Assembly: GCA_945883695.1 (NCBI GenBank)
Contig: CAMCYK010000015.1
Coordinates: 1 to 48,781 of the forward strand
Direction: 5' to 3'
Length of the DNA: 48,781 nt
DNA from: Akkermansia muciniphila
GTDB lineage: Bacteria > Verrucomicrobiota > Verrucomicrobiia > Verrucomicrobiales > Akkermansiaceae
How positions within the stretch are numbered: the stretch's first letter is position 1; the number at the start of each line of letters is the position of its first letter. The translations under genes and the position numbers were made by a program. Positions 21,892 through 38,505 of the stretch are shown here, one piece after another. Under the pieces are notes generated by a model. That model did not search any database. It was given only the letters and a program-made list of their open reading frames with translations, and was not told the DNA's origin.

Positions 21892-22758
21892 TCAGTGCTC
21901 GAGCCGGTTCGGGACCTTGGTCCACTCCGCGGCGGGCTTGATCGGCCAGCCGGGGTTGTTGGGGGTCCAGACGCGCTTGTCGGCGTTGAGGCGGAGCCAG
22001 GCGGCCCACCAGCTGAAGGAGCTGTTGGCGACGATGGCGTGGCGGCAGGCGGCCATCAGGCGGAAGTCGCGCAGCTCGTCGCCGCGGTCGTCGGAGACGT
22101 AGCGGACCGGCGCGCCGTGGAAGTCGAGGTACTGCCGCGCCCATTCCAGGTCGTCGCCGAAGACGAAGAACTGGCAGCCTCCGAGCATCGAGAGGGCGGA
22201 GATGATACTGGAATCGTAGTAGCCGGAGCCGAGGCGCGGCGAGTAGCGGTCGCGGCGGATGTGGATGAAGACCGAGGGCGTGGAGGACAGCTCGGTTTCG
22301 AGGTCGGCGTCGGCGCTGCCTTCGGCGAAAGCCGGCGGCTGGAGCTCGGTGCGGATGGTCGAGGCACGCTCGGCGAAGTATTTCTCGCTCTGCCAGTAGC
22401 CGTTCAGCCGGACGATCTGGCGGTTGCTGATGAAGCCGGTGAGCTGGTCTTCCGGCTTGTCGCTCTCCTCGGCGAGGTAGGAGTGGAGGGGATTCGGCAG
22501 CAGCTTGTTGAACGAGCGGAGGGCCTTGTGTTTGAGGCCTTTCGGGTCGCCGAGGCGCCAGCGCGGCGGGGCGAGCTGGGCGGCGACGGGAAACTGGCCG
22601 AGCTTGAACGAACGGTCGTAGCCGTCGCGGGTGAAGCCGGACACGTCGTCGAGCCACAGCTCGCGGCGGGTGCGGATGGCGTAGGCGCGGGCGGCCGCGT
22701 AGGCGAAGAGCTGGTTGCCCAGCCCTCCTTTGATCATGGCGACGACGGCGCGGGTCAC
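21892..22758 (-). CDS. alpha-1,2-fucosyltransferase family protein (GT11)
   Basis: A 288-residue glycosyltransferase that would transfer fucose from GDP-fucose to a galactose in alpha-1,2 linkage. Signatures: MIKGGLGNQLFAYAAARAYA at the N-terminus, the GDP-fucose-binding motif HIRRDRY (the family HxRRxDY, here without its glycine), FVFGDDLEWARQYL, and IVANSSFSWWAAWL. It has no signal peptide and acts in the cytoplasm. I set the start at the GTG 22758-22756, whose GTGA overlaps the stop codon of the upstream gene (TGA 22757-22755) for translational coupling; the ATG at 22737 is a later alternative. It is the last gene of the FkbM-SGNH-MBOAT operon, placing fucose on the glycan decorated by the other products. 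Confidence 0.88.
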   Translation of the reverse strand: MTRAVVAMIKGGLGNQLFAYAAARAYAIRTRRELWLDDVSGFTRDGYDRSFKLGQFPVAAQLAPPRWRLGDPKGLKHKALRSFNKLLPNPLHSYLAEESDKPEDQLTGFISNRQIVRLNGYWQSEKYFAERASTIRTELQPPAFAEGSADADLETELSSTPSVFIHIRRDRYSPRLGSGYYDSSIISALSMLGGCQFFVFGDDLEWARQYLDFHGAPVRYVSDDRGDELRDFRLMAACRHAIVANSSFSWWAAWLRLNADKRVWTPNNPGWPIKPAAEWTKVPNRLEH

Positions 22759-23951
22759 TTCAGCGGGGCGGATTGGAATTTGGCGAGGGACTTCCTCAGG
22801 AAGGCGAGGTCGTCCGGGTGGCGGGTGGCGTAGGCGTCGAGTTGCGCGCGGACTTGCTCCACGCGGGCGTCGATGTTTTCCGGGGTGAGCCGTTCGCCGT
22901 AGCTGCCCGGGCCGTTCAGGCGGTCGAGCATCAAGCGGCCGATGTCGGGGGGTGCATGGAAGAGATCGATCCATCCGTCAAGGTGCGATCCGGGTTGGTC
23001 GGCCGGCGGAAGGGGCGGGGAGTTGAGCGGATGGCCGTCGAGGAAGTCCCAGACTTCGACCGGCGGGGCCGCGGGGGCGGCGGCGTTGGCCTTGGCGGCC
23101 AGCCCGGCGAGGGCGCGGCGGTCCTTGGCGAAGTAGGGGTCGGGATCGCCGAGTTCGCGGTAGGCGAGCTGGAACAGGGCGTGGTTGGGGGTGAAGAAAA
23201 TCACGGGGCGCGCGTTTTTTTCGCGGCAGGCGGCGATGATGTCCTCCACGAGGGCGATTTTTTCTTCCGAAAGGCGTCCATGCGCGCGGCGGGCCATCAC
23301 CATGCGGTAGGTGGTCGAGAGGTAGAGCGAGGAAATCTGCACGCGCTGGTTCTCCGGGAAGGGGGTATTGAGCCGGAAACCCTGCGGCGAATGCTCGGCC
23401 GGCTGGCCCTTGATCGAACGGCCGACGGTGGCGAACGAGGCGGCCATGGTGGAGATGCCGACGCGGTAGCGGAGTTCGCGTTCGAGCGGGTTGCCGGCGG
23501 GATCGAGCGGCGAGAGCGGGAAGTCGGTATTGTTGACCTTGGGCGGCGGGGTGCTGAGGTCGCCGGCGTCGATCGCGAGGATCACCAGGCGCGGGTCCTC
23601 GCGTTCGATGAAATAGCGGAACATCGCGTGGTTCTCGACCAGCAGCCCGGCGTTGAGGCCGAGGTTGGCGCAGCGCATGCCGTCGAAAACCGGATGGGCG
23701 GGATCGAGCGCGATGTCGACGCGCGACGAGCCGAACATCGCGGCATCCCAGGTGCCGGAGCGCACCAGGCCGGCCTTCGAGGTGCGGTTCCAGGTGATCT
23801 GGATCGCGCGGTAGGGCTCGAGCTTTTGAGAGGTCCATGGGGTCGGCGTGACCCGCCACGGATTGACCCGGGTGTTGAGCGCGAAGCCGCCTGCCGCCAT
23901 GCCGGCGAGCAGCAGGAGGAAAAAGCGCTGGTAGCGTTTCAGGGCGCGCAC
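22755..23951 (-). CDS. AlgJ/AlgX-like SGNH acetyltransferase partner A
   Basis: A 398-residue membrane-anchored protein, helix at about 8-27, with the rest periplasmic. It carries an SGNH-hydrolase-like layout: block I FGSSRVDIALDP (S75 or S76 in AMFGSSR), block II-like AIDAGDLS, a middle FFTPNHALF and a DxxH near the end (DLFHAP). Such proteins pair with MBOAT channels (as AlgJ/AlgX with AlgI) and transfer acetyl groups to exopolysaccharide. The region NTRVNPWRVTPTPW is shared with partner C and, in part, partner B. The GTG at 23951 gives a 5-bp gap after the MBOAT stop and is a better start than codons overlapping it. Its stop codon overlaps the fucosyltransferase start. Confidence 0.8.
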   Translation of the reverse strand: MRALKRYQRFFLLLLAGMAAGGFALNTRVNPWRVTPTPWTSQKLEPYRAIQITWNRTSKAGLVRSGTWDAAMFGSSRVDIALDPAHPVFDGMRCANLGLNAGLLVENHAMFRYFIEREDPRLVILAIDAGDLSTPPPKVNNTDFPLSPLDPAGNPLERELRYRVGISTMAASFATVGRSIKGQPAEHSPQGFRLNTPFPENQRVQISSLYLSTTYRMVMARRAHGRLSEEKIALVEDIIAACREKNARPVIFFTPNHALFQLAYRELGDPDPYFAKDRRALAGLAAKANAAAPAAPPVEVWDFLDGHPLNSPPLPPADQPGSHLDGWIDLFHAPPDIGRLMLDRLNGPGSYGERLTPENIDARVEQVRAQLDAYATRHPDDLAFLRKSLAKFQSAPLK

Positions 23952-23956
23952 GGGTG

Positions 23957-25516
23957 TCAGAACTGGAAGTAGATGAATTCGCTGACCTTGTCGAACTGTA
24001 GGCCGGTGGCGACGGCGAGCCCCACGGTGGCGGCGGCGAAGGCGGGGGTCGGCTGCCATTGCCACCAGCGGCGGGTGCCGGCGGCGGGGAAGGGCGCGCC
24101 TTTCACCCGGAGGGCGGGGCGGTAGCGGGCGAAGATCTCCTGGGTGTTGGGGAACAACCAGACGCCGATCAGGGCGGGCAGCAGTTTGAGCGGTTCGGCG
24201 CTGGCGACCACCCGGGCGGCCTTGTCGGGCCAGCCGTCGAAGCCGTTCAGCCCGGCCATCGAGGCCAGCATGCGGTTGGCGCTGGCGAAGTCATGGGCGC
24301 GGAAGTAGACCCAGCCGACGAGGACGGCGAGGAAGGTCACGGCGACCGCCAGCGGCTTCGGCAAGGCGGGCCACGCGAGTTTCTTCCGCAGGCCGAGCCA
24401 GGCGTGGTTGAGGCAGAGATAGGCCCCGTGCAGGGCGCCCCACATCACGAAGGTCCAGCCCGCGCCGTGCCAGATGCCGCCGAGCAGCATGGTGAGGAAG
24501 AGGTTCACGTAGCGGCGCTTGGGGCCCTTGCGGTTGCCGCCGAGCGGGATGTAGAGGTAGTCGCGCAGGAAGCGCGACAGCGTCATGTGCCAGCGCCGCC
24601 AGAACTCGACGATCGAGTCCGCCTTGTAGGGCGAGTGGAAATTGAGCGGGAAGCGGATCCCGAACAGGCGGGCGGCGCCGAGGGCCATGTCGGAGTAGCC
24701 GGAGAAATCGAAGTAGAGCTGGAGCGCGTAGGCGACCGCGCCGACCCAGGCTTCGGCCATCGTCGGATCGCGCCCGTCGGCCGCGGCGAGGCCGAAGACC
24801 GGGGTGGCGATGCGCGCGAGGTTGTCGGCGATGACGACCTTCTTGAAGAGGCCGCAGAGGAAGATCCCGAGGCCGACCGGGAAGTCGCGGTGCCAGCCGT
24901 GGTGGCGCTTGCGGAACTGCGGCATCATCTCGCGGTGATGGATCAGCGGGCCGGCGATCAGGTGGGGGAAGAAGGTGACGAAGAGCAGGTAGTCGGTGAA
25001 GTGGTACTCCTCGGTCTCGCCGCGGTAGGCGTCCACGAGGTAGGCGATCTGCAGGAAGGTGAAGAAGGAGATCGCGAGCGGGAGGACGATCGGCTGGAGC
25101 TCGCCCGGCCAGCCGGTGAGGGAGGTGGTGATCCCCGCGAGGAAGCCGGCGTATTTGAAGTAGCCGAGGAGCGCGAGGTTGGCGGTGACGGCGGCTGTCA
25201 GGAGAAGCTTGGCGTGAGGAGTGGCGAGACTCTTGTCGCCACGACGGTCGGGGGGACAAGAGTCTCCCCCCTCCTTGTGGAGGCGCGACAATTGCCGGCC
25301 TAACAGGTAGTTGAAGACGCAGGAGCCGAGGATCAGCAGGACATACTTCGGGCTCCACGGGCCGTTCGGGTCGGGATTCCAGACACCGTAGAAGACGAAA
25401 GACACCAGCACCAGCCAGCCGAGGACCACGCGGAAGGGCGCGCGGCGCAGGGCGTGCCAGCCGAGCAGGGCGATCGGCAGGAAGACCAGCAGGAAGGTGT
25501 AGGAATTGAAGAGCAA
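23957..25516 (-). CDS. MBOAT family O-acyltransferase A (AlgI-like)
   Basis: A 519-residue inner-membrane protein with 10-12 helices that would pass acyl groups (probably acetyl) across the membrane to the periplasmic partner A for polysaccharide O-acetylation. The MBOAT core is clear: PFFPHLIAGPLIHHREMMPQ-type segment, FDFSGYSDMALGAARLFGI, NFHSPYKADSIVEFWRRWH, LRDYLYIPLGG and the catalytic-His motif GGIWHGAGWTFVMWG. The N-terminus by homology with the two paralogs is LLFNSYTFLL, so the start is the TTG at 25516; a longer ATG reading would run through the upstream palindromic element and is rejected. It ends EFIYFQF, as both paralogs do. Residues about 95-130 carry an extra Cys/Gly-rich segment not in the paralogs. 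Confidence 0.93.
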   Translation of the reverse strand: MLFNSYTFLLVFLPIALLGWHALRRAPFRVVLGWLVLVSFVFYGVWNPDPNGPWSPKYVLLILGSCVFNYLLGRQLSRLHKEGGDSCPPDRRGDKSLATPHAKLLLTAAVTANLALLGYFKYAGFLAGITTSLTGWPGELQPIVLPLAISFFTFLQIAYLVDAYRGETEEYHFTDYLLFVTFFPHLIAGPLIHHREMMPQFRKRHHGWHRDFPVGLGIFLCGLFKKVVIADNLARIATPVFGLAAADGRDPTMAEAWVGAVAYALQLYFDFSGYSDMALGAARLFGIRFPLNFHSPYKADSIVEFWRRWHMTLSRFLRDYLYIPLGGNRKGPKRRYVNLFLTMLLGGIWHGAGWTFVMWGALHGAYLCLNHAWLGLRKKLAWPALPKPLAVAVTFLAVLVGWVYFRAHDFASANRMLASMAGLNGFDGWPDKAARVVASAEPLKLLPALIGVWLFPNTQEIFARYRPALRVKGAPFPAAGTRRWWQWQPTPAFAAATVGLAVATGLQFDKVSEFIYFQF

Positions 25517-25533: not shown

Positions 25534-25584
25534 GGAGTGTCGACCTTCGGTCGACGCGGTGTCGACGGAACGTCGACACTCCTC
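25534..25584. repeat. nested palindromic element family B, second copy
   Basis: Stems GTCGACC/GGTCGAC (25539-25555, loop TTC) and GTGTCGACG/CGTCGACAC (25559-25579, loop GAA), enclosed by GGAGTGT and ACACTCC. Compared with the copy at 2848-2898, the first stem has a G-to-C change matched by a C-to-G change on the other side. On the minus strand the element is preceded by CCTTGA; the TGA is the stop codon of the SGNH gene. Confidence 0.88.
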
Positions 25585-26449
25585 AAGGGAGCACGCCGGC
25601 TTTATGCAGCTCGGCAAGGGCCAGCGGCATCAGGCGTTGGGAGAGGTGGGTGCTGTCGTGGAAGAGCTTGAGGTCGGGCTTTTCCGCGGGCGGATGGTAG
25701 AGGCCGGCGAGGGCGACCATGGGGATGCCGGCATTCCCGCAAAGCTCGCGCAGCCTCGCGGTGTAGGCGTAGGTGATGTCGCGGCGGAGTTCCCAGGAAC
25801 CGATGAAGGGGAAGGTCGGGCTGGTCAGGCTCTCGTCCTTCGGGATGATCTGCGGCGGGCCCCAGACGACCGGCCGGAAGCCGCGGGCGGCGATCGCTTG
25901 CGGGAGCTGGACGAACTTCGCGGCGGTTGTTTCGACCACCTCATCGATCCGGCCGCCGGCGATCACCGCCTTGGCCATGTGGATGCGGCAGTCTATTTCG
26001 CCGAAGGACAGCAGCACGCGGCTGCCGGGCTTCACGTCCTTCTTGAGCAGGATCTCGATCTTCTCGCGCGAGCGGGTCGACGAGCCGGGGTCGCCGGCTT
26101 TCCAGGCGGGGGCGGGGCCGACGTGGAAGACGCGGAAGCAGGGCAGCAGGTCGAGGCCGCGGTTGATCCAGTGCGGCTTCCAGAAGGCGCTGCGGCGGTA
26201 GCGGACGAAGCGCAGGCGCTCGGCCCCGGCGAAGAACATCGTGTTGCTGTCGCCGTTGCAGGTCAGGGGCTCGAAGGAACCGGCCGGTCTGAAGACCGGC
26301 GGTCCCGGGAGGTGCTTCTCCAACAGCGCGTGGCGGCGCTCGTCGAAGGGGGTGGCCTTGGTCCGCGGCTTGCGGGTCAGCAGCGCGTCGAGGTCGTCGG
26401 CCAGCGAAACGACTTCCGCCAGGGTGTCAGCCGGGAGTTCGGGGATCAC
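25583..26449 (-). CDS. SGNH/GDSL-fold family protein
   Basis: A 288-residue protein with no signal peptide or membrane helix. SGNH-like elements are CNGDSNTMFFAG (GDS at 66-68, S68), LLSFGEIDCRIH (a block III-like segment in which G-E-I-D replaces GxND) and FHDSTHLS (D265 and H268, the DxxH catalytic motif). These enzymes are esterases, or acyltransferases when paired with MBOAT proteins. Its position directly before MBOAT A suggests it adds or removes acyl groups on a sugar precursor in the cytoplasm. The GTG at 26449 forms a GTGA overlap with the FkbM gene's stop. The stop codon at 25585-25583 (TGA) lies in the edge of a repeat. Confidence 0.75.
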   Translation of the reverse strand: MIPELPADTLAEVVSLADDLDALLTRKPRTKATPFDERRHALLEKHLPGPPVFRPAGSFEPLTCNGDSNTMFFAGAERLRFVRYRRSAFWKPHWINRGLDLLPCFRVFHVGPAPAWKAGDPGSSTRSREKIEILLKKDVKPGSRVLLSFGEIDCRIHMAKAVIAGGRIDEVVETTAAKFVQLPQAIAARGFRPVVWGPPQIIPKDESLTSPTFPFIGSWELRRDITYAYTARLRELCGNAGIPMVALAGLYHPPAEKPDLKLFHDSTHLSQRLMPLALAELHKAGVLP

Positions 26450-27387
26450 GCGACGCCTGCTTTGGATTCAACGATCGACCACTCCGGGGCGAGCCAGGTG
26501 TCGGGCGACTGCTTGCCGACGAGGACGAGGTCGGTGTGGACCCGGTTCGGGTCGCCGTGGAGCTTCGGCAGGCTGGCGAAGCCCTCCACTTTCTTGAGCG
26601 TCTTGGCCTTGATGCTGGCGACGCGGTAGGTGTGGAAGCGCTGTTGCAGCCAGCCGAGGTATTCCGGCGGGGATTGGCCGGCCCAACTGATGTACTGGGC
26701 GTCGAACTCGATGAAGCCGACCGAGCGGGTCACCGAGGCGATGGTCTCGACGAAGCCGCGCAGGGCTTTGCTTTCGTAGCCCTCGATGTCCATTTTGAAG
26801 AGCAAGGTCTTGCCGCGGGCGGCTTCGAGCGGGACCACCGAGTCGATCGTCTTGGCGGGCAGCTTGAATTCGAGGGTCTGCGGCCGGGTGTTCATTTCGC
26901 GCACCGCGGACGAACTGCCGCTCCAGTCGGGGTTGACGAAGAAGGGGATATCCTCGGCCGGGGCGTCGGAAACCAGGCAATTGGTGATCGTCATCCGCGC
27001 GCCGGCCGGGTGTTCGGCCTTGCTCTTCTCGAGGTGGGGGATGAGGCGCGGGTTGGCTTCGAATCCGTAGAGGATCGCGTTGGACGCGTAGTCGGTGCCG
27101 AACAGGCACTCGCCGTAGTTCAGGCCGACGTCGACGATCAGGTCGGGATTCAGGTGACGGTTGAAATCGCGCCAGAAGATCAGGTTGTCGGAGACTTTGC
27201 CGCGGAGAGGTTCCTCGACGACCTTTTTGAGGGCGCAGGGGTCGCCGGCATCGATGTAAATCCAGTGCGGGCTGCCATGCAGTTTGGCGCGCTCCGGGCG
27301 CAGGGTGCCGTAGCGGATCAGGGTGAGCGGCTTGAGGTAGGCTCGTTTGAAGGCTTTTTCGAAACGCTTGTAGGGGCTGACATTCAT
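26446..27387 (-). CDS. FkbM family SAM-dependent methyltransferase
   Basis: A 313-residue methyltransferase, cytosolic. The class I SAM-binding motif is DLIVDVGLNYGECLFGTD, followed by LYGFEANPRLIPHLEKS and TNCLVSDAPAEDIPFFVN; the FkbM signature KMDIEGYESKALRGF comes near residue 210, then VGFIEFDAQYIS. FkbM-type enzymes methylate hydroxyls of sugars and polyketides and are common in polysaccharide clusters, so sugar O-methylation is the likely role. The ATG at 27387 (MNVSPYKRFEKAFKR) fits; it is the first gene of the five-gene operon, with a divergent promoter region of about 97 bp upstream. Confidence 0.9.
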   Translation of the reverse strand: MNVSPYKRFEKAFKRAYLKPLTLIRYGTLRPERAKLHGSPHWIYIDAGDPCALKKVVEEPLRGKVSDNLIFWRDFNRHLNPDLIVDVGLNYGECLFGTDYASNAILYGFEANPRLIPHLEKSKAEHPAGARMTITNCLVSDAPAEDIPFFVNPDWSGSSSAVREMNTRPQTLEFKLPAKTIDSVVPLEAARGKTLLFKMDIEGYESKALRGFVETIASVTRSVGFIEFDAQYISWAGQSPPEYLGWLQQRFHTYRVASIKAKTLKKVEGFASLPKLHGDPNRVHTDLVLVGKQSPDTWLAPEWSIVESKAGVA

Positions 27388-27484: not shown

Positions 27485-28570
27485 ATGCCCCGCATGATCC
27501 GCTCGTTCGTCCTTGCCGCGCTTGCGGTGGCCACCGGCTTCGGTCAGGAAAAGCCCATGACCGGGGAGCAAGCGGCGGGATTCGTGAAACTGGCGCTGGC
27601 GGGGATCGACCGCGAGTTCCCGAACAAGACCGGGCACGTCACGACCGGGCCGGACGATCTGAAGTCGCCGCGTGCGATGCACCCGGTGTTTTACGGCCAT
27701 TTCGACTGGCACTCGTCGGTCCACGGCCACTGGATGCTGCTGCGCCTGCTGAAGCAGTTCCCCGCGGCCCCGTTCGCCGGCGAGGTGCGGGCTCTGTTGG
27801 GGCGGCGGCTGACGGCCGAGGGACTGGCGGCGGAGGCTGCCTATTTCAGGGTCAAGGAGAATCGCAGTTTCGAGCGGATGTATGGCTGGGCGTGGGCGCT
27901 GCGGCTGGCGCTGGAATTGCGGACCTGGGACGACCCCGACGGCCGCGAGTGGGCTGAGCGCTTCCAGCCTTTGGAAACGGAGATCCGCGGGTTGGCGCTG
28001 GCCTACCTGCCGAAGCTCGACTGGCCGGTCCGCTGCGGTTTCCACCCGGAGACGGCCTTTCCGCTGGGCCAGATGCTCGACTACGCGCGGGGCCGCGGCG
28101 ACCGGGAGTTCGAGACCCTGCTGTTGGAGAAGGCGCGGGCTTTTTATGGCAAGGACCGGAACTATCCGACGGCCTACGAGCCCTCGGGCAACGACTTTTT
28201 CTCGCCCGGGCTGAACGCCGCCGACCTGATGCGGCGGGTGCTGCCGGCGGACGATTTCGGACGCTGGCTGGGCGAATACTTCCCGGAACTGGCGGCGGGC
28301 CAGGCGGGCAATTTGCTCACGCCGGTCACCGTCAGCGATCCGACGGACGGGCATCTGATCCACCTCGCCGGGCTGAACCTGACGCGGGCCTGGACGATGC
28401 GGGGCATCGCGTCGGTGCTGGCGGACGGCGACGCGCGGAAGAAGGTGCTGCTGGAGGCCGCGGAGCGGCACGCCGAGGCGGGGCTCGGGCTGGTGGCGAC
28501 GGGGCACTACGAGGGGGACCATTGGCTGGGGTCGTTCGCGGTGTATTTGCTGGGCGGGAGCGGGAAGTAG
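27485..28570 (+). CDS. DUF2891 family protein, exported
   Basis: A 361-residue protein with a hydrophobic N-terminal segment ([16 protein letters not shown]) that looks like a signal peptide, so it is probably periplasmic. The DUF2891 signature is [18 protein letters not shown] (around residue 60-85), then [51 protein letters not shown] and [11 protein letters not shown]. The fold is an all-helical barrel of unknown activity, with conserved His, Asp and Trp residues that suggest a sugar-binding or hydrolytic site. The ATG at 27485 and a second ATG at 27494 are both possible; the latter gives a cleaner signal. Beside a glycan operon, a glycan-related role is plausible but unproven. Confidence 0.85.
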
Positions 28571-28618
28571 CGGGAGTTTTGCTTTTCGTCGGACCCCGTC
28601 CCGCGCCACCGTCGGGGC

Positions 28619-30406: not shown

Positions 30407-30531
30407 CGGCGGGGATGACCGACGGTCGTTGGAGGAAAGCAACGGGTCGATCAAGTGGCGCGGAAGGGTGAGGGCCGGCCTGGCGGGTGGCTTCGTTGAC
30501 AAAGTGAGGCGGTCAGAGACACGGCCGCTAT
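30403..30531. repeat. REPIN family A spanning a convergent gap and forming both stop codons
   Basis: The left arm (30403-30428) begins GTAGCGGCGGGGATGACCG; the right arm (30489-30531) in inverted orientation carries GCGGCC, TGACCGCC, CACTTTGTC and GAAGCC, with foot ATAG. The TAG of the left foot is the stop of the plus-strand fusion gene and the TAG of the right foot (30528-30530) is the stop of the minus-strand HAD gene, so one element defines both ends. Confidence 0.8.
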
Positions 30532-31187
30532 AAGTTGACGAGCTGGGACAGGTCGCTGATCAGGTGGTCGGCACCGCTTTGTGCGAGGCTCCGGTCGCGG
30601 AGGCGGAGGGACGTCGGGTCGCCGGCGAAGAGGGCGGTGCGGAAGCCGGTGGCGCGGGCGGGATCGATGTCGTTGCGGACGTCATTGCCGACGTGGATCA
30701 CCCCGGCGGCCGGAATGCCGCGTCGGGCGAGCTTGTCGCGGAGGATTTCGAAGAGACGGGGATCCGGTTTGGCGCGGCGCTCGAGGTAGGAGAAGCAGCA
30801 AAGGTCGGGATCGATCCCGAGTTCGGTGAGAGAGGTGCCGAGGGCTTCTTCGAGAAGTGGCACGGTATAGAACTGGGCGTTCGAGATCAGGCCGAGCGGG
30901 ATGCCTTTCTCCGCGAGCTGGCGCAAGGTCTCGGCGGCTCCGGGCATCGGGCTGACCGGATTCGCGTTGCGTTCGTGGGCGATGGCGAGAGCCTCGATTT
31001 CTTCCGGCGCGAACCCCGGGTGAAGCGCGGCGTGGATTTCGCGGATGTCGATTTCCGGAAAAGGATGCGGCGAGGCGGCGTGGGCGCGGGCGATGAGATC
31101 GCGGAGCACCGGGTCGGGATGGAGTTCGCCGGCGGCGGAGCTGAGCAGCGTGCCGTAGATGTCGAAGAGGACGGCGCGGTGGGGCAT
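30528..31187 (-). CDS. HAD superfamily hydrolase (phosphatase-like)
   Basis: A 219-residue cytosolic HAD enzyme. Motif I is LFDIYGTLLS with nucleophile D9; the second acid of the usual DxDGT is tyrosine (DIYGT), as in the haloacid-dehalogenase branch, which may mean a dehalogenase-like or altered phosphatase activity. Motif II is LGLISNAQF, motif III is RAKPDPRLFEIL (lysine in AKPD), and motif IV HVGNDVRNDIDPARATGF. It reads 45 bp after partner B, with a palindromic element filling the gap, so it may be the last gene of the acyltransferase operon; dephosphorylation of a sugar phosphate would fit but is a guess. Its stop codon belongs to a repeat. Confidence 0.88.
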   Translation of the reverse strand: MPHRAVLFDIYGTLLSSAAGELHPDPVLRDLIARAHAASPHPFPEIDIREIHAALHPGFAPEEIEALAIAHERNANPVSPMPGAAETLRQLAEKGIPLGLISNAQFYTVPLLEEALGTSLTELGIDPDLCCFSYLERRAKPDPRLFEILRDKLARRGIPAAGVIHVGNDVRNDIDPARATGFRTALFAGDPTSLRLRDRSLAQSGADHLISDLSQLVNL

Positions 31188-31200: not shown

Positions 31201-31235
31201 GGAAGGCTTGCGGCAGGCTGCCGCGGCCACGGTTA
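31201..31235 (-). repeat. palindromic element family C, supplies partner B stop codon
   Basis: On the minus strand TAACCGTGGC, then GCGGCAG/CTGCCGC, then AAGCCTTCC. The TAA (31235-31233) is the stop codon of the partner B gene. The copies at 4669-4703 and 47273-47307 have GTCTC in the hairpin loop where this has CAGCC, with the stem kept. Confidence 0.85.
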
Positions 31236-32483
31236 GAAGCCGGGGGCGGAGTCGTCCTGGGGGGCGGAGTCGCCGGTCGATTGGTAGCTGGCGACGCCGT
31301 CGGCCATCCATTGCCAAAGGGCGGGGGATTCGGTTTTGAAGCGCTGGTAGCCGTCGCGGATCGCCTGCTCGCGCTCTGTTAGATTGTCGGGGGTCAGCTT
31401 GAATCCGTAGTCGGCGCCGGGTCCCTCGAGCGGCCAGCCCATGATGCGGGCGAGCATGACGTCGCCGAGGGCCTTGCGGGCGTGGGTGCCGTCGAGCCAC
31501 CAATGCATGCGGGTCTTGTCCTGCGGGACGTCCTCGCGGTTGAGCGGGTGGAAATCGTTGAAGTCCCAGACCTCGGCGGGCGGGGCGGCGGGGTGGGCGG
31601 CGTTGGATTCGGCGACCAGCTTCGCCATGATGCCGCGGTCCTTGCGGAAGGCCGGATCGGGGTCGCCCTCGAGGTGGAAGACGCCGATGTAGCTGGCGTG
31701 GCTGGGCGGGATGATGACGACCAGCCGGCAGTTCTTTGCCTTGGTGTCGGAAAGCATCTGGCGCAGCAGGTCCATCTTCCACGGGTTGCCGTCGCCGGGC
31801 TCGATCGCCTTGCGGCGGCGGGCGACGCGGAGGGCGTGCGGAATGGAGTCGCGCTGGATGACCTTGGCGACGTCGGCGGGTTCCTGGTGGCGCAGGCGGT
31901 GGCCGAGCGGGGTGTATTCGGGGAGTTCGCCCTGGTTCCTGTTGATCAGGGTCTGGACGGCGGTTTCGAAGGTCGAGATGCCGGCGTAGGCGCGCAGCGT
32001 GAGCTCGAAGCGGTCGCTCTGCGGGTTGAAGGGCGACTCCATGAAGCCGGTCGAACGGTAGGGCGAGTTCGGGCCCATCAGGTCGCCGATGTCGATGCCG
32101 ACGATGGCGGTTTCGAGCGGCGCGTGGCGGAGGGTGAAGCGGAGGATCGGCGCGCTTTCCGGCAGGGTGCCGGCGCTGACGGCGAGGTTGACGGCGGGCT
32201 GCTCGCCCCACTGCGGCAGGGCGGGATCGAGCGCGATGTCGACCCGCGACGAACCGAAGAACGCGGCTTTCCACGGCTGCGCTCTGGCGATGCCGGCCTT
32301 GCCGGTGCGCTGGTGGCGGTAGATCGGACGGTAGTCGGCGAAGGAGTCGTCGGTCCACGGGGCCGGGCTGACCCAGAGCGGGTTGATCCAGCTGTTGAAC
32401 CCGACGAACAGCAGCATGATGCCGGTCGCCGCGCCGAGGATGGCGAGGGCGAAGGTTCGGAACGGTTTTATCCGGAGGCGCAT
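31233..32483 (-). CDS. AlgJ/AlgX-like SGNH acetyltransferase partner B
   Basis: A 416-residue protein with an N-terminal membrane helix (about 10-29) and a periplasmic SGNH-like domain: FFGSSRVDIALDP (GSSR around residues 77-80), GIDIGDLMG, VIIPPSHASY in the middle, WDFNDFHPLN and the DxxH motif DGTHAR. It is a paralog of partner A (shared FGSSRVDIALDP, DFxxxHPLNxE and C-terminal LTPxNLTERE-type region). It transfers acyl groups delivered by MBOAT B, by analogy with alginate acetylation. The ATG (32483-32481) shares one base with the MBOAT B stop codon (TGATG), a strongly coupled arrangement. The C-terminus runs QDDSAPGF into a TAA within a repeat. Confidence 0.82.
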   Translation of the reverse strand: MRLRIKPFRTFALAILGAATGIMLLFVGFNSWINPLWVSPAPWTDDSFADYRPIYRHQRTGKAGIARAQPWKAAFFGSSRVDIALDPALPQWGEQPAVNLAVSAGTLPESAPILRFTLRHAPLETAIVGIDIGDLMGPNSPYRSTGFMESPFNPQSDRFELTLRAYAGISTFETAVQTLINRNQGELPEYTPLGHRLRHQEPADVAKVIQRDSIPHALRVARRRKAIEPGDGNPWKMDLLRQMLSDTKAKNCRLVVIIPPSHASYIGVFHLEGDPDPAFRKDRGIMAKLVAESNAAHPAAPPAEVWDFNDFHPLNREDVPQDKTRMHWWLDGTHARKALGDVMLARIMGWPLEGPGADYGFKLTPDNLTEREQAIRDGYQRFKTESPALWQWMADGVASYQSTGDSAPQDDSAPGF

Positions 32484-34033
32484 CAGAACTGGAAGTAGAT
32501 GAATTCGCTGACCTTGTCGAACTGGTGGAGCACGGCAAGCAGGAGGACGATCACGAAAGCGGCCCAGGCGGGGCGGGGGCGCCATTGCCACCAGCGGCGC
32601 GGGCCGAGGCGGCCGTCGGGCAGGTGGTTGAGGCCGAGCGCGGGCTGGTAGCGGCGCATGAACTGCTGGGTGCTCGGCAGCAGCCAGACCAGCAGCACGC
32701 ACATCACGGCGCGGAAGGCGTGGCTGGCTTTGACCACGACCGCGCTGCGGTCGGGCCAGCCGTCCCAGCCATTGAGGCCGGCCATCGAGGAGAGGATCGA
32801 TTTCGTGGCTTCGAGCGCGGCGGTGGTCGAGCCGTTCGGGCCCTGCTCGAAGCTGCCGGCGCGGAAGGGGACCCAGGCGATGAGGACGGCGATGAAGGTC
32901 AGGCCGACCGCGAGCGGCTTGGGAATCGCGGGCCAGGCGAGCTTTTTCCGCAGGGCGAACCAGCCGTGGTGGATGCAGAGGTAGAGGCCGTGGAGGAGGC
33001 CCCACAGGAGGAAGGTCCAGCCGGCGCCGTGCCACAGGCCGCCGAGGCCCATCGTGATGAGGAGGTTGGTGTAGCGGCGGCTCTTGCCCTTCCGGTTCCC
33101 GCCGAGCGGGATGTAGAGGTAGTCGCGGAGGAAGCGCGACAGGGTGATGTGCCAGCAGCGCCAGAAGTCGGTGATCGAGGTGGTCTTGTAGGGCGAGTGG
33201 AAGTTGACCGGCAACCGGATCCCGAACAGGCGGGCCGCGCCGATGGCCATGTCGGAGTAGCCGGAGAAGTCGAAATAGATCTGCAAGCCGTAAGTGATCG
33301 CCGCGGTCCAGGCCTCGGCCATGGTGAGATCGCGCTCGCCGCTGGCGGCGAGGGTGAACAGGCGGGTGGCGATCGGCGCGAGGTTGTCGGCGATGACGAC
33401 CTTCTTGAACAACCCGATGGCGAGGATGGTCAGGCCGGCGGAGTAGTTCAGCCATTTCCGCTCGCCGATGGTGCGGGACTGGAACTGGGGCAGCATCTCC
33501 TTGTGGTGGACGATGGGCCCGGCGATCAGCTGGGGGAAGAAGGTGACGAAGAGCAGGTAGTCGGTGAAGTGATACTCCTCGGTTTCGCCGCGGAAGGCAT
33601 CGACGAGGTAGGCGACCTGCTGGAAGGTGAAGAAGGAAATGCCGAGCGGCAGGATGACGTCGGGGATCGACATGTCCTCCCCGGTGAAGAGGGCGAAGGT
33701 GCGGGCGAAGAGGCCGGAATACTTGTAGTAGCCGAGCAGGGCGAGGTTGGCGACGACGCCGAGGGTGAGCATGCCCTTGCCGGTGCGGCTGCCCTTGTGG
33801 CGGGCGAGGTAGCGGCCGAAGAGGTAGTTGCCGACGCAGGAGGCGAGGATCAGGATCAGGTAGTCCGGCTGCCAGCCTGCCTCGCGGTCGGGGGTCCACC
33901 AGCCGTAGTAAACCAGGCTGGCGATGACCAGCCAGGCGAAGCCGCCGCGCAGGCTGTGTTTGCTGACCAGGTGGAAGCCCAGCAGGGTCAGCGGGAGCAG
34001 GAGCAGCAGGAAAGTGTAGGAATTGAAGACCAT
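32483..34033 (-). CDS. MBOAT family O-acyltransferase B (AlgI-like)
   Basis: A 516-residue polytopic protein (10-12 helices). It starts MVFNSYTFLLLLLPLTLLGF and has the MBOAT core: ISFFTFQQVAYLVDAFRGET, FPQLIAGPIVHHKEMLPQFQ, DFSGYSDMAIGAARLFGIR, RDYLYIPLGGNRKGKSRRYT and the catalytic GGLWHGAGWTFLLWGLLHG (the histidine of WHG). It should channel acyl groups to a periplasmic acceptor complex with partner B, with which it overlaps by one base. It starts 9 bp after the MBOAT C stop codon. It is closer to MBOAT C than to A in the middle loops (PIVHHKEMLPQFQ), suggesting a tandem duplication. Confidence 0.93.
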   Translation of the reverse strand: MVFNSYTFLLLLLPLTLLGFHLVSKHSLRGGFAWLVIASLVYYGWWTPDREAGWQPDYLILILASCVGNYLFGRYLARHKGSRTGKGMLTLGVVANLALLGYYKYSGLFARTFALFTGEDMSIPDVILPLGISFFTFQQVAYLVDAFRGETEEYHFTDYLLFVTFFPQLIAGPIVHHKEMLPQFQSRTIGERKWLNYSAGLTILAIGLFKKVVIADNLAPIATRLFTLAASGERDLTMAEAWTAAITYGLQIYFDFSGYSDMAIGAARLFGIRLPVNFHSPYKTTSITDFWRCWHITLSRFLRDYLYIPLGGNRKGKSRRYTNLLITMGLGGLWHGAGWTFLLWGLLHGLYLCIHHGWFALRKKLAWPAIPKPLAVGLTFIAVLIAWVPFRAGSFEQGPNGSTTAALEATKSILSSMAGLNGWDGWPDRSAVVVKASHAFRAVMCVLLVWLLPSTQQFMRRYQPALGLNHLPDGRLGPRRWWQWRPRPAWAAFVIVLLLAVLHQFDKVSEFIYFQF

Positions 34034-34042: not shown

Positions 34043-35602
34043 TCAGAACTGGAAGTAGATGAACTCGCTGAGCTGGTCGAATTCGCGGCCGACGGCGTAG
34101 AGCAGGGCGAGGGTGAAGAGGAGGAAATACCAGACCGGCCGCCATTGCCAGCGGCGGCGCGGGCCGATCAGGGCGCTGGTGAAGGAGCGGATGTCGAGGG
34201 CGGGGCGGTAACGGCGGAAGAATTCCTGGGTGTTGGGGAGCAGCCAGATGATGGCGAGGCCGATCACGATCGGACGCAGGGCGCGGGTCTCCTTGACCAC
34301 CACGACGGCGTCGGGTGGCCAGCCGCTGAAGCCGTTGAGGCCGAACATCGAGGCGAGGATGTTGCGGGTGGCGGCGAGGGCGGAACTGGTCGAGCCGTCG
34401 GCCACCAGCTCGAAGCTTCCGGCGCGGAAGGGGACCCAGGCGATGATCACCGCGAGGAAGGTCAGCGCGCCGGCGAGCGGGCCGGGCAGCTTCGGCCACG
34501 CGAGCTTCTTGCGCAGCCAGTGCCAGCCGTGGTTGGCGCAGAGGTAGAGGCCGTGGAGGAGGCCCCACAGCGCGAAGGTCCAGCCGGCACCGTGCCACAG
34601 GCCGCCGAGCAGCATGGTGATCAGCAGGTTGGCGTAGCGGCGCGAGGGCCCCTTGCGGTTGCCGCCAAGCGGGAAGTAGAGGTAGTCGCGGAGGAAGCGC
34701 GAAAGGGTGATGTGCCAGCGCCGCCAGAACTCGATGATCGAGGTGGCCTTGTAGGGGGAATGGAAATTCAGCGGCAGCAGGATCCCGAACATCCGGGCCG
34801 TGCCGAGGGCCATGTCGGAGTAGCCGGAGAAGTCGAAGTAGATCTGCAAGGTGTAGGCCAGGGTGCCGGCCCAGGCTTCCAGCATCGAAAGGTCGCGGGT
34901 GCCGGCCGCGGCGAGGCCGAAGATCGGGGTGGCGGTGCGGGCGAGGTAGTCGGCCATCACCACCTTCTTGAACAGGCCGATGGCGAGGAAGCCGGAGCCG
35001 ACCGCCAGGTCGATCGCCCGCAGCCCGCGGCCGCGCCCGCCCTGCCGCTGGAACTGCGGCAGCATCTCCTTGTGGTGGACGATGGGTCCGGCGATCAGCT
35101 GGGGGAAGAAGGTGACGAAGAGCAGGTAGTCGGTGAAGTGGTACTCCTCGGTTTCGCCGCGCCAGGCATCGACGAGGTAGGCGATCTGCTGGAAGGTGAA
35201 GAAGGAGAGCCCGAGCGGCAGCACGATGTCCGGCAGGGCCATGTCGGCGCCGCTGAGCGAGACGTAGGTCTTGGCGAAGAGACCGGCGTACTTGTAGTAG
35301 CCTAACAGCAGGAGGTTGGCCGCGACCGCGGTGAAGAGCATCGCCTTCCCGGTCCGGCGGCCGCGGTGTCGCGAGACGAAGCCGCCGAAGAAGAAGTTGG
35401 CGGTGCAGGAGCCGGCGAAAAGCAGGACGTAGAAGGGCGTCCACGGCTCCGATGGGTCGGGATTCCACCAGCCGTAGTAGATCAGGCTGCTGACGACCAG
35501 CCAGCCGATGGCGACGCGGAAGGGGGCGGCTCGCAGCAGGTGGAAGCCGATCAGCGCGATCGGCAGGAAGACCAGGAGGAAGACGTAGGAATTGAACAGC
35601 AT
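34043..35602 (-). CDS. MBOAT family O-acyltransferase C (AlgI-like)
   Basis: A 519-residue polytopic membrane protein opening MLFNSYVFLLVFLPIALIGF. Core elements: LSFFTFQQIAYLVDAWRGET, FPQLIAGPIVHHKEMLPQFQ, FSGYSDMALGTARMFGIL, NFHSPYKATSIIEFWRRWH, LRDYLYFPLGGNRKGPSRRY and GGLWHGAGWTFALWGLLHG with the catalytic His. It ends EFIYFQF like its paralogs. It lies 6 bp after partner C and 9 bp before MBOAT B, so all four genes form one operon. Having two MBOATs back to back, with a partner on each outer side, is an inverted order relative to the A pair (MBOAT then partner). Confidence 0.93.
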   Translation of the reverse strand: MLFNSYVFLLVFLPIALIGFHLLRAAPFRVAIGWLVVSSLIYYGWWNPDPSEPWTPFYVLLFAGSCTANFFFGGFVSRHRGRRTGKAMLFTAVAANLLLLGYYKYAGLFAKTYVSLSGADMALPDIVLPLGLSFFTFQQIAYLVDAWRGETEEYHFTDYLLFVTFFPQLIAGPIVHHKEMLPQFQRQGGRGRGLRAIDLAVGSGFLAIGLFKKVVMADYLARTATPIFGLAAAGTRDLSMLEAWAGTLAYTLQIYFDFSGYSDMALGTARMFGILLPLNFHSPYKATSIIEFWRRWHITLSRFLRDYLYFPLGGNRKGPSRRYANLLITMLLGGLWHGAGWTFALWGLLHGLYLCANHGWHWLRKKLAWPKLPGPLAGALTFLAVIIAWVPFRAGSFELVADGSTSSALAATRNILASMFGLNGFSGWPPDAVVVVKETRALRPIVIGLAIIWLLPNTQEFFRRYRPALDIRSFTSALIGPRRRWQWRPVWYFLLFTLALLYAVGREFDQLSEFIYFQF

Positions 35603-35608
35603 GCGCGA

Positions 35609-36844
35609 TCAGGGTTCCGCGGCGGCCTGCCGGATCAGGTCTTCCTTCCATTCGACATCCCCGCGCTGCGGGCCGGCGAGGTAGCGGGCGTAGCCTTGTT
35701 TGACGCTTTCCAGGTGCTGCTCGAAATTTTCCGGGGTGATCCGGGTGCCGTAGGTGTCGCCGCCTGCAAGCGGTGAGGGCCAGCCCATCACGCGGGACTG
35801 GATCAGGTTGCCCATCTCGATGCTGTAGTGGCCGAGGTCGTTCCAATGGGTCATCCGGGCCTCCTCGCTGCGGGGGATCGGCTCGCTGTTGAGCTCGTGG
35901 TAGTCGCAGAAATCCCAGACTTCGATCGGCGGGCCTTGCAGCGGGAGGGCGTTGACCCGGCTGGCGATGTCGAGCACCGCGCGGCGCTCGCTTTCAAAGA
36001 GGGCCGGCGGGGTGGCGGCATCGGCCGCGCGGGCGTGCATCAGCGCGTGGGTCGGGTGGATGAAGGCGATGAAGCGGATGCCCTGCTCGCGGCTGGCGCG
36101 CATGACGCCTTCCAGCAATTGGACTTTTTCCGCGTTGAGGTCGTTGCCAGTGCGGCCCTTGTCGGGCAGGTCGTAGGCGGCCTCGCCGACGATGCGGTCG
36201 CGGATGAAGAACAACTGGCTCTTCTGGCCCTTCTTCTTCGGCCGGGCGCGCAGCCCTTTCGGGGTGTATTGGGTGGTCTCCCCGGCGGCGGCGCGTTTCA
36301 GGGTGGAGAACGAGGCCTCCAGGGTCGAAATGCCGAAGAGGTAGCGCAGCTCGCGGTTGAGCGCGTCCTGGTTGGTCGCCAGCGGGGAGGAATGGAAATC
36401 GCCCATCGGCCGGGTGTCGACGTCGGAGCTGAGGTCGCCGGGGTCGATCCCGAACAGGACCACCTCGACCGTCCGCTCGCCGATCAGGTAGCGGAGGATC
36501 GCCTCGCTTTCGTAGAAAAAGCCGCCGCTGCAGCCGAGGTTGACCACGTCATCGCGGTTCCAGCCGGCGAATTCCGGATCGAGGGCGTTGGCGACGCGGG
36601 AGGAGCCGATGAAGGCGGCGCCGATGGTCTCGTTCGAGCGGACGATCCCGGCCTTGCCGGTGCGGATCTGCGACGAGATGTCGCGGTAGGGGTCCAGCGA
36701 CTCGGCGGACCACGGGGTCGGGGTCACGCGCCACGGGTTGACCGTGGTGTTGAGGATCACGGCGGCAAGCAGGGTCAGACCGATGCAGCCGAACAGGGCG
36801 GTGACGTAGCCGCGCGGCGCCGACATGGGAGGGGTATGCGCCAT
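35609..36844 (-). CDS. AlgJ/AlgX-like SGNH acetyltransferase partner C
   Basis: A 411-residue protein with an N-terminal helix (VTALFGCIGLTLLAAVILNT, about 14-33) and a periplasmic SGNH-like domain: AFIGSSRVANALDPEF, LFGIDPGDLSS, AFIHPTHALMH, EVWDFCDYHELNSEPIPRS and DLGHYSIEMG, the DxxH motif (D..H). It shares TVNPWRVTPTPW with partner A and TPENFEQ with both paralogs. Of two possible starts, ATG 36844 and ATG 36826, the first is given; neither has a strong ribosome binding site. It is the first gene of the partner C-MBOAT C-MBOAT B-partner B operon and diverges from the sulfotransferase genes. Confidence 0.8.
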   Translation of the reverse strand: MAHTPPMSAPRGYVTALFGCIGLTLLAAVILNTTVNPWRVTPTPWSAESLDPYRDISSQIRTGKAGIVRSNETIGAAFIGSSRVANALDPEFAGWNRDDVVNLGCSGGFFYESEAILRYLIGERTVEVVLFGIDPGDLSSDVDTRPMGDFHSSPLATNQDALNRELRYLFGISTLEASFSTLKRAAAGETTQYTPKGLRARPKKKGQKSQLFFIRDRIVGEAAYDLPDKGRTGNDLNAEKVQLLEGVMRASREQGIRFIAFIHPTHALMHARAADAATPPALFESERRAVLDIASRVNALPLQGPPIEVWDFCDYHELNSEPIPRSEEARMTHWNDLGHYSIEMGNLIQSRVMGWPSPLAGGDTYGTRITPENFEQHLESVKQGYARYLAGPQRGDVEWKEDLIRQAAAEP

Positions 36845-36934
36845 GCCTCGCGAGGGTGTCAAACGTCTTCCATCATCAGGAACCGTCCTTGACCGGGGGC
36901 GCCGGGATCGGGGAGGCTGGCGACGCCTTATTCC
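36845..36934. promoter_or_regulatory. divergent promoter region (acyltransferase operon / sulfotransferases)
   Basis: A 90-bp gap between divergent starts. It must hold promoters for both the acylation operon and the sulfotransferase pair, so the two could be co-regulated. No clear hexamers or operator were found. Confidence 0.4.
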
Positions 36935-37543
36935 ATGATCTCCCTTCAAAAACGCTTCCTCTTCGTCCACATCCCGAAGACCGCGGGCAACTCGATCCAG
37001 AACATCCTGCGGGACTACTCCGAGGACCGGATCGTCGCCAGCGGCGGGCAGGACGGGGTGGAGCGCTTCGAGGTGCGGTCGGACGGGCGGGAGCTGGTGA
37101 AGCATTCGACACTGGCCGAATACTACCGCGAGCTGGGTAAGGAGACCGCCGACGGGCTGTTCAAGTTCGCCTGCGTCCGCAACCCGTGGGACCGGATGAT
37201 CTCGTTCTGGTTCTCGCCGCACCGCCGCGAGGCGAAGTGGGACCCGAAGAAGTTCCGCAAGTTCGTCGAGAAGGAGGTCCGGCCGCTGCGCGATTACTTC
37301 GCGCTGCCGACCGATGCCGGCAAACCGTCCTTCGGCAATGTCGATTTCATCATCCGCTACGAGCATCTGAACGACGACTTCCGCACCGTCTGCGAGAAGC
37401 TCGGGATCCCGCCGGTGGAGCTGCCGGTGCGCAACCGCTCCGAGCGGGGCAGCGCGGCGGAGTACTACGATGAAATGCTGGGCGATTTCATCGCGGAGAC
37501 CTTCGCCGACGAGATCGACTACTTCGGCTACCAACGGCCATGA
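36935..37543 (+). CDS. sulfotransferase family 2 domain protein
   Basis: A 202-residue PAPS-dependent sulfotransferase. The 5'-phosphosulfate loop is LFVHIPKTAGNSIQNIL (residues about 8-24), and the 3'-phosphate motif is FACVRNPWDRMISFWF (about 78-93), both hallmarks of the carbohydrate sulfotransferase group. There is no signal peptide, so it works in the cytoplasm on a sugar nucleotide, lipid-linked sugar or polymer. It overlaps the second sulfotransferase by 4 bases (ATGA), so the two are co-translated. Next to fucosyl and acyl transferases it probably sulfates the same glycan. No PAPS synthesis genes are visible in the window. Confidence 0.9.
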   Translation: MISLQKRFLFVHIPKTAGNSIQNILRDYSEDRIVASGGQDGVERFEVRSDGRELVKHSTLAEYYRELGKETADGLFKFACVRNPWDRMISFWFSPHRREAKWDPKKFRKFVEKEVRPLRDYFALPTDAGKPSFGNVDFIIRYEHLNDDFRTVCEKLGIPPVELPVRNRSERGSAAEYYDEMLGDFIAETFADEIDYFGYQRP

Positions 37544-38505
37544 CGCGCCCGGTTTTCCTGCTGTCCCTGCCGCGCGCCGGCTCGACGCTGCTCCAGCGGC
37601 TGCTGCTGACGAGCGGGAAATGCGCGACGCTGGGCGAACCGAGCTTGCTGCTGCGCTTCCTCGGCGAGGGGCCGGCGATGACGCGCAAGGCGACTTATTG
37701 GGAATCGCTGGTCGAGACCGCGACCGCCGACATGCGCCAGGCCTGGGGCGGCTATGACGAGGCCTACCGGAAGGGCGTGCGCGACTTGATGCAGGGGATC
37801 TACGACGGGCTGGCGGACGGCAAGGAGTGGTTCATCGACAAGACGCCGCGCTACACGCTGATCGCCGAGGAGATCCTGGCGACCTTCCCCGAGGCGAAGT
37901 TCATCGTGCTGTGGCGCCATCCGCTGGCGGTGGCGGCTTCGGTGTCGTCGACCTTCCGCAAGGGGCGCTGGTGTCCGGACGAGTTCGGGATCGACCTGCA
38001 TGAAGGCCAGGCGCGCTTGCAGGAGTTTTGCCAGCGGCACGGCGGGCGGGTGTTCCAGATCAAGTACGAGGACCTGGTGACCGATCCGGCCGGCGAGCTG
38101 GGGCGGCTGGGGGATTACCTCGGCTGGGAGAACCTGCCCGCGGTGCTGGAGCAGGAGCTGGTGACTTCCACCGGCGGGACCCTGGGTGATCCGACCGGGG
38201 TGAAGCGCTACCGCAAGATCTCGCCGGCCAGTCGCGACGCGTGGAAGGCGGAGTTGTCGAATTGGTATCGGAGGGCGTGGGCCCGGAGTTATGTTTCGGG
38301 CGAGCGGGCGATGAAAATGAAGGAGCTCGGCTACGAACTGCCGGACGGGATCGCGCGGGGAGGGCGGCTGGGCTTGTTCGCGGGGCTGGCGGATTGGTTC
38401 ACGGCCCGGCGGCGGATTCACCGGAGGTTGCGGAAACCGACGTGGTTGCCGCGCTTTGCCCGGAAGTTCCGGAAGGAGCGCGGGTATGAGGTGTCGTTCC
38501 GGTGA
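37540..38505 (+). CDS. sulfotransferase family protein
   Basis: A 321-residue sulfotransferase of the Sulfotransfer_3-like group. The PAPS 5'-loop is VFLLSLPRAGSTLLQRLLLT (residues about 5-24); WFIDKTPRYTLIAEEI, KFIVLWRHPLAVAASV (3'-phosphate binding, with R and S) and FQIKYEDLVTDPAGELGRL follow. It starts with an ATGA overlap with the preceding gene. The C-terminal 40 residues are very basic (RRRIHRRLRKPTWLPRFARK), perhaps for binding a polyanionic substrate or the membrane. It and its neighbour probably modify two different positions of one glycan. Confidence 0.9.
   Translation: MTRPVFLLSLPRAGSTLLQRLLLTSGKCATLGEPSLLLRFLGEGPAMTRKATYWESLVETATADMRQAWGGYDEAYRKGVRDLMQGIYDGLADGKEWFIDKTPRYTLIAEEILATFPEAKFIVLWRHPLAVAASVSSTFRKGRWCPDEFGIDLHEGQARLQEFCQRHGGRVFQIKYEDLVTDPAGELGRLGDYLGWENLPAVLEQELVTSTGGTLGDPTGVKRYRKISPASRDAWKAELSNWYRRAWARSYVSGERAMKMKELGYELPDGIARGGRLGLFAGLADWFTARRRIHRRLRKPTWLPRFARKFRKERGYEVSFR

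Follow-up and report, generated by a model that had tools for sequence, protein, structure and literature searches.

A reading made from the sequence alone described this DNA as carrying one island of glycan-decorating genes, and here we report a computational analysis of the same 48,781-bp stretch (the window), which spans all of contig C15 in a draft genome of 6.32 Mb (G000; 391 contigs, 92.6% completeness, 3.5% contamination). The genes in question comprise a five-gene block (unit A) and a four-gene block (unit B; 36826–31233), both on the minus strand, and two sulfotransferase genes, ST2 and ST3, which are divergent from unit B and start at 36935. Pfam matches to these genes bore out the list given by the sequence-only reading, namely three MBOATs, a GT11 glycosyltransferase, an FkbM methyltransferase, an SGNH protein and two sulfotransferases; we use SGNHtm for the predicted membrane-anchored SGNH partners of the MBOATs. 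Unit A has the order FkbM–SGNH–MBOAT1–SGNHtm1–GT11 and unit B the order SGNHtm3–MBOAT3–MBOAT2–SGNHtm2:

26446..27387, minus strand: FkbM-family S-adenosylmethionine methyltransferase (PF05050, 7.5e-8; TIGR01444, 52.3 bits, cut-off 37.7; start from relatives)
25583..26449, minus strand: SGNH/GDSL protein (weak PF13472 match, 7e-4, 20.6 bits, cut-off 32.9)
23957..25516, minus strand: MBOAT1 (PF03062, 6e-42; C-terminus FIYFQF)
22755..23951, minus strand: SGNHtm1, predicted membrane-anchored SGNH partner (GSSR and WIDLFH)
21892..22758, minus strand: GT11 glycosyltransferase, predicted fucosyltransferase (PF01531, 5e-16, 59.2 bits, cut-off 23.9; HIRRDRY)
35609..36826, minus strand: SGNHtm3 (AlphaFold model with an N-terminal helix, 2–29, followed by an SGNH fold)
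34043..35602, minus strand: MBOAT3 (PF03062, 7e-37; C-terminus FIYFQF)
32483..34033, minus strand: MBOAT2 (PF03062, 7e-43; C-terminus FIYFQF)
31233..32483, minus strand: SGNHtm2, predicted membrane-anchored SGNH partner (GSSR and WLDGTH)
36935..37543, plus strand: ST2, Sulfotransfer_2 sulfotransferase (PF03567, 6e-13; PKTAGNS loop)
37540..38505, plus strand: ST3, Sulfotransfer_3 sulfotransferase (PF13469, 6e-30; PRAGST loop)

The eleven reading frames of the reported genes each had a guanine–cytosine (GC)-position coding score of 58–150, the threshold for a coding call being 15, and the likely starts of FkbM (27387), MBOAT1 (25516), SGNHtm1 (23951) and GT11 (22758) were set from the coding score together with alignment with relatives. 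Comparisons were made across 57 genomes: G000 itself, 17 of the same genus, 17 of the same family and 22 of the same order. The genome is of Haloferula/Luteolibacter type: its protein matches carry those genus names, and the relatives with a name, among them L. luteus (G009), L. marinus (G012), H. helveola and H. rosea, belong to Haloferula and Luteolibacter (Verrucomicrobiota), genera that the accessible part of PMC13174399 places in the Akkermansiaceae. Counts of MBOAT and SGNHtm motifs cover the window and 36 loci taken from its own genome and the relatives.

The genome has four MBOAT genes, and the three in the window are mutually 62–66% identical. All 52 MBOATs counted contain the WHGAG catalytic histidine (WHGAGW in 47, WHGAGF/L in 5), and all 52 carry a C-terminal F-x-Y-x-x-F motif, which takes the exact form SEFIYFQF in 49. 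In PatA, according to the accessible text of PMC12148441, the tyrosine of such a tail is auto-acetylated, and the acetylated tail peptide is the donor for PatB. Having a PF03062 domain, the catalytic histidine, the tail motif and an adjoining SGNH partner with a predicted anchor, the window genes belong, by the sequence features tested, to the MBOAT–SGNH acyl-shuttle kind, and they are predicted to have the corresponding activity. The proposal that each MBOAT is paired with a partner needs one correction: in unit B the two MBOAT genes lie back to back between two SGNHtm genes.

None of the three SGNHtm proteins matched a Pfam family at E ≤ 10 or an NCBIfam model, and a sequence search of PDB chains gave nothing relevant. 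They are 34–38% identical to one another (SGNHtm1 is 38% identical to both SGNHtm2 and SGNHtm3). The description of membrane-anchored, SGNH-like partners with FGSSR and DxxH motifs was confirmed: GSSR is present in all 58 SGNHtm proteins and W-x-D-x-x-H in 55 of them, hydropathy called a transmembrane segment in SGNHtm2 and SGNHtm3 (SGNHtm1 fell below threshold), and the AlphaFold model of SGNHtm3 has a confident SGNH fold (predicted local distance difference test (pLDDT) score, 94.7). In SGNHtm3 the serine motif at 74–77 is followed by D330 and H333, the canonical Ser…DxxH order. Among the matches listed, the best full-length fold matches of SGNHtm were DltD, and the PatB fold was also similar. 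The 50 rows listed included no AlgX or AlgJ structure, an absence to which we give no weight. That the SGNHtm proteins are instead esterases that remove acyl groups appears highly improbable, given that they are paired with MBOATs bearing the shuttle tail and that DltD and PatB are both transferases.

The term AlgI/J/X-type, which the sequence-only reading had applied to these systems, suits the MBOATs, which are AlgI-like, but not their partners. As far as the text of PMC9487903 available to us describes it, the AlgI/AlgJ/AlgX system is a precedent for one MBOAT serving two SGNH partners, but AlgJ and AlgX are circularly permuted (H-S-G-N order). Because SGNHtm shows the canonical Ser…DxxH order and not this permutation, we rejected an AlgJ/AlgX identity; PF16822 was likewise absent from the window proteins (one relative reached 25.8 against 26.5 bits), and the Pfam matches in the window included no alginate gene. 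The DltB/DltD/DltX system resembles the window genes in the fold matches of SGNHtm to DltD, the best among those listed at full length, and in the matches of the MBOATs to DltB chains and TIGR04091. However, the MBOATs reach only 170–175 bits against a DltB cut-off of 375, their shuttle tail is fused to the MBOAT and no DltD Pfam match was found. D-alanylation was rejected: D-alanine is unlikely as the acyl group because none of six DltA matches exceeded the cut-off in this 92.6% complete genome.

SGNHtm genes are present in 16 of the 17 same-genus relatives, with one weak match among the 39 other genomes. Their number ranges from two to five per genome. Of the 16 same-genus relatives with SGNHtm, 13 have three MBOATs of the clade, as does the genome of the window. 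SGNHtm and clade MBOATs number five and three in G015, five and two in G016, and two and three in G004. In the SGNHtm tree the unit-A members form one clade (15 rows, support 100/100) and the unit-B partners lie elsewhere. Unit-A MBOATs do not form one clade (P value of the approximately unbiased test, 0.019; 14 rows against 35), in a tree computed without one truncated row (L068) and a clade test that also omitted two long-branch MBOATs. If MBOATs can replace one another and the SGNH proteins are specific, an SGNHtm clade without a matching MBOAT clade is what one would expect. We infer that the MBOAT would supply acyl groups exchangeably, with the SGNHtm as an acceptor-specific writer.

The five-gene order of unit A, with gaps of 0–406 bp, was found in the window and in 13 of the 17 same-genus relatives. 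Among the exceptions, G001 holds the five families in another arrangement, the unit-A SGNH gene is absent from G016 and G017, and G005 is 61% complete. Across the same-genus genomes the decoration genes co-occur, as they should if the sequence-only reading is right. The unit-A SGNH protein itself is present in 15 of these 17 relatives and in none of the 39 other genomes. It has no transmembrane segment by hydropathy and no evident signal peptide by eye, and a sequence search of PDB chains gave nothing relevant; Asp67-Ser68 and Asp265..His268 are invariant in a 53-row alignment, and the Foldseek matches of its AlphaFold model (pLDDT 94.6) are small SGNH esterases. Hydropathy gave no transmembrane segment in the FkbM protein either.

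Unit B is divided in G006, G008 and G011 into an SGNHtm2–MBOAT2 pair and an SGNHtm3–MBOAT pair. Beside it in the window, ST2 and ST3 both exceed their family cut-offs and carry P-loop-like motifs (PKTAGNS and PRAGST), which we take to bind 3′-phosphoadenosine 5′-phosphosulfate (PAPS); ST3 also gave a partial match to the NoeE model (71.5 bits against a cut-off of 500). Counted at E ≤ 1e-20, ST3 occurs in 12 of the 17 same-genus relatives (13 genes), with one distant copy outside the genus. Ten of the 13 copies, in nine of the 12 genomes, have their start no more than 10 kb from an SGNHtm gene, where chance placement would give 0.16; these copies are not independent, because the linkage is partly inherited by shared descent. 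This clustering argues against the possibility that the sulfotransferases act on a lipid or a small molecule and adjoin the acylation genes for historical reasons only, as does a sulfotransferase-like gene near cysN in L. luteus and in G007. Such a target would fit the breadth of the sulfotransferase domain families and the position of ST3, which in G006 is a long way from SGNHtm and in G008 and G011 lies on a different contig, but we regard it as improbable.

Two further observations concern the neighbourhoods of these genes. A family of sulfotransferase-like proteins of 264–265 amino acids is encoded beside SGNHtm in three relatives (L051, 11867–12661; L050, 7122–7919; L052, 9229–10026); the L051 copy matches PF13469, and no counterpart was seen in the window. 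One cluster (L063; G016:C14:46000-65999) holds five SGNHtm genes, two MBOATs, GT11, ST2 and ST3, the most uneven ratio of writers to suppliers that we saw.

The sequence-only reading had noted that genes for backbone synthesis are not in the window. This absence means little, because the window is a whole contig of a draft genome, and the genes in question do lie elsewhere: polysaccharide, guanosine diphosphate (GDP)-fucose and PAPS genes stand side by side on contig C5, in a polysaccharide-like locus at about 16–53 kb with 30 called genes, of which 20 were scanned. The run comprises an RfaH/NusG-like gene (79 bits of 144), an epimerase-like gene (called by eye, outside the 20 scanned), a nucleotide-sugar dehydrogenase, DegT, GDP-fucose synthase (464 bits, just under the cut-off of 500), Gmd (587 bits, cut-off 415), WecG, and CysC, CysD and CysN, all three over their cut-offs. 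CysN is followed by genes for glycosyltransferases and for methyltransferases, one of them an FkbM that exceeds its cut-off, by a weak match to a flippase and by a multi-transmembrane protein. Thus, of the polymerase, flippase and PAPS synthesis genes that were to be looked for, those for PAPS synthesis were found, the flippase is weakly matched and no polymerase family was matched in the 20 of 30 genes scanned. The PAPS supply does not appear to be dedicated, a candidate that we rejected: the single CysD of the genome is the one in the C5 locus, and CysH, on contig C62, is PAPS-type and has no CC pair. A CC pair is the mark of the adenosine 5′-phosphosulfate (APS)-reductase kind.

Apart from one or two inserted genes, the relative order between the RfaH-like gene and CysN is conserved in L. 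luteus, H. helveola and G007, at 73–96% identity; DegT was not found in the H. helveola run. On C5, gmd and the APS kinase gene lie about 1.2 kb apart with wecG between them. Taking one strong match per genome and dropping weak APS-kinase matches and second copies of either gene, we found the two no more than 10 kb apart in 14 of the 15 same-genus relatives with strong matches to both, in 5 of 7 genomes of other genera in the family and in 0 of 14 elsewhere in the order. The same 50 kb of L. luteus holds a sulfotransferase-like gene one gene past cysN, Wzy_C and Bac_transf genes, an MBOAT ending in FIYFQF and a gene resembling GT11. Cut-offs are exceeded there by Bac_transf, at 218 bits, and by one Wzy_C, at 58 bits, and a second Wzy_C and the flippase fall below. 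In G007 the sulfotransferase-like gene comes immediately after cysN. At the L. luteus locus (L103; G009:C1:3535000-3554999), a DUF3485 protein adjoins the Bac_transf and Wzy_C genes; we presume DUF3485 to be the exosortase-associated EpsI family, a hint of an exosortase link.

Taken together, we consider it probable, though well short of assured, that the two cassettes and the sulfotransferase pair decorate a fucose-containing, sulfated surface polysaccharide, likely of Wzx/Wzy-type assembly from the other contig. In the cytoplasm, GT11 would add fucose from GDP-fucose, FkbM would O-methylate a sugar, and ST2 and ST3 would use PAPS to sulfate the lipid-linked units as these grow. The unit-A SGNH protein would most likely be an esterase or acyltransferase on a cytoplasmic intermediate. 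After export, the MBOAT would charge its tail tyrosine, on the periplasmic side, with an acyl group that is probably acetyl supplied by acetyl-CoA, and the SGNHtm would take it on the GSSR serine and pass it to the glycan, so that the MBOAT may serve as a general supplier and each SGNHtm as the writer for its acceptor. A polymer bearing fucose, methyl, acyl and sulfate groups is plausible; that a single polymer carries all four, like the substrate, the acyl group and the order of steps, is what we infer from these genes.

Several points weigh against this decoration pathway. Its support is genomic, consisting of gene content and order, motifs, linkage and supply genes. The GT11 motif has the form HxRRxxY, which we take to differ from the textbook form, and GT11 members may use other donors. 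G004, a 97% complete genome, has unit A and lacks gmd; ST3 (at E ≤ 1e-20) is missing from five of the 17 same-genus relatives. In the C5 locus the flippase reached 100 of the 300 bits of the WZX-like model, the 544-amino-acid multi-transmembrane protein has no family and, among the 20 of 30 called genes scanned, no polymerase family was matched. PAPS would be shared with sulfate assimilation, because there is one CysD and CysH is PAPS-type. The MBOAT clade test was run with the tree already known, and two long-branch rows were dropped for it. Finally, in the two relatives assembled as one contig, unit A, unit B and the polysaccharide locus all lie far from one another, and may therefore serve different glycans.

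The spacing of units A and B bears on the claim of one island, which is not supported in that form. The 3.8 kb between them in the window contain the following genes, identified by Pfam:

27485..30406, plus strand: DUF2891 protein and rhodanese/RluA fusion (spacer, outside the system)
30528–31187: HAD hydrolase

Because these unrelated genes intervene, the island is better described as two blocks, with the sulfotransferase pair beside the second. In the fusion (28619–30406, plus strand), a UPF0176/rhodanese part, presumably TrhO-like, and an RluA-type pseudouridine synthase domain are joined in one protein of 595 amino acids. Where the units lay on different contigs, their separation was taken as a lower bound from the distances to contig ends. 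Among 13 relatives with an intact unit A, the distance from A to B is 0.50 and 1.65 Mb in the two genomes that consist of a single contig and no less than 25 kb in ten more; in L. marinus it is at least 5.0 kb, and both units reach near the ends of their contigs and might adjoin.

One explanation is that A and B came together in this genome by chance rejoining or by an assembly chimera, in which case the cassettes are real and the island is not. The close relatives G007 and G010, whose unit-A proteins are 87–94% identical to those of the window, both have the two units separated by 25 kb or more, the spacer DUF2891 gene lies beside neither unit in six of six relatives (on another contig in three, 31 kb off in one and more than 200 kb off in two), and the assembly is a draft of 391 contigs with 3.5% contamination. 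By contrast, GC content shows no break at the junction, which is weak evidence, the possible neighbourhood in L. marinus points the other way, and A-type and B-type genes cluster in three relatives: G001 has one cluster with all unit-A families and an SGNHtm2–MBOAT2 pair, in which no SGNHtm3-type gene was found, and in G016 and G017 a GT11 gene joins unit-B-type genes. We hold a chance or artefactual junction to be a serious possibility, if less probable than not.

The same distances, together with the placement of the SGNHtm1, SGNHtm2 and SGNHtm3 types in separate parts of the tree and the adjacency of the window sulfotransferases to unit B, would also suit cassettes that serve different glycans, with unit A acting on one (for example an O-antigen-type glycan with a methylated, acylated fucose cap) and unit B with ST2 and ST3 on another. 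The mixed clusters of G001, G016 and G017 speak against such a division, as does the joint location of the fucose and PAPS supply genes, and we think it rather unlikely, while preferring a shared decorated polysaccharide.

Some of these clusters hold additional genes. The rearranged G001 cluster (L053; G001:C17:1-20000) also has two FkbM genes and a diverged MBOAT. The unit-B genes of G017 stand among genes of the nucleoside diphosphate (NDP)-sugar, glycosyltransferase and C-methyltransferase kinds. Near those of G013, an aminotransferase gene and another sulfotransferase gene were confirmed.

Polymers with both sulfate and O-acetyl groups are a known kind; what sets the present genes apart is a partner family resembling DltD, the modularity of the cassettes and the coupling of fucose and PAPS genes in one run. 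The fucosylation and acetylation of the NGR234 Nod factor use other enzyme families. That fucose-bearing molecule combines methyl, acetyl and sulfate groups and, through the partial NoeE match of ST3, has a link to the window, but it is a small signal molecule, unlike the polymer proposed here (PMC4881576, from the part accessible). PatA/PatB and the general MBOAT–SGNH shuttle system share the catalytic histidine, the C-terminal F-x-Y-x-x-F and a separate SGNH partner; here, by comparison with the available text of PMC12148441, the predicted substrate is a surface polysaccharide, the SGNHtm proteins lack Pfam and NCBIfam families and they outnumber MBOATs in some genomes. Acylation combined with sulfation had been called unusual for bacteria; it is uncommon, but the capsule of Vibrio sp. 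KMM 8419 is a chemically shown precedent, with rhamnose 3-O-sulfated and 4-O-acetylated and cysNDC and sulfotransferases in its cluster (PMC11641403, as far as accessible). According to the same portion of that paper, the capsule system uses an ABC transporter, rhamnose and one proposed acyltransferase, whereas fucose supply, MBOAT/SGNH pairs and separate decoration loci are seen here. Within the phylum, the sulfated glycosaminoglycan-like exopolymer of Pontiella involves PF13469 sulfotransferases, one of them in a glycosyltransferase cluster; Pontiella belongs to a different class, its sulfation is mostly N-linked and the term MBOAT does not occur in the text of PMC7356697 that was available. 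The available part of one mat study (PMC9723792) reports Verrucomicrobia genomes without a PF13469 sulfotransferase, and Akkermansiaceae are described in the accessible part of PMC13174399 as degraders of mucin and fucoidan. A literature search, for which most subscription papers were out of reach, listed none on these cassettes or on a Haloferula/Luteolibacter sulfated polysaccharide among its matches.

A genus of apparently Akkermansiaceae thus looks equipped to make its own fucose- and sulfate-bearing glycan, and L. luteus and H. helveola carry the same genes. SGNHtm would represent a branch of the MBOAT–SGNH acyl-transfer machinery in which the uneven numbers of SGNHtm and MBOAT make the acceptor specificity of the SGNH proteins testable. 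As a speculation that we consider unlikely to hold, Haloferula and Luteolibacter might make a fucoidan-like exopolysaccharide, bearing fucose together with sulfate, O-methyl and O-acyl groups, and edit it by a combinatorial code, in which MBOATs are exchangeable, diversifying DltD-like SGNH writers each serve one acceptor and sulfotransferases sit beside individual writers.

Elsewhere in the window, a protein of 256 amino acids (17629–18399, minus strand) has as its sole match the N-terminal domain model of GH65-type hydrolases and is possibly the product of a truncated or split gene, and a bacterial protein encoded at 12055–13590 on the plus strand contains a GH75 chitosanase-like domain, matched by a fungal family model.

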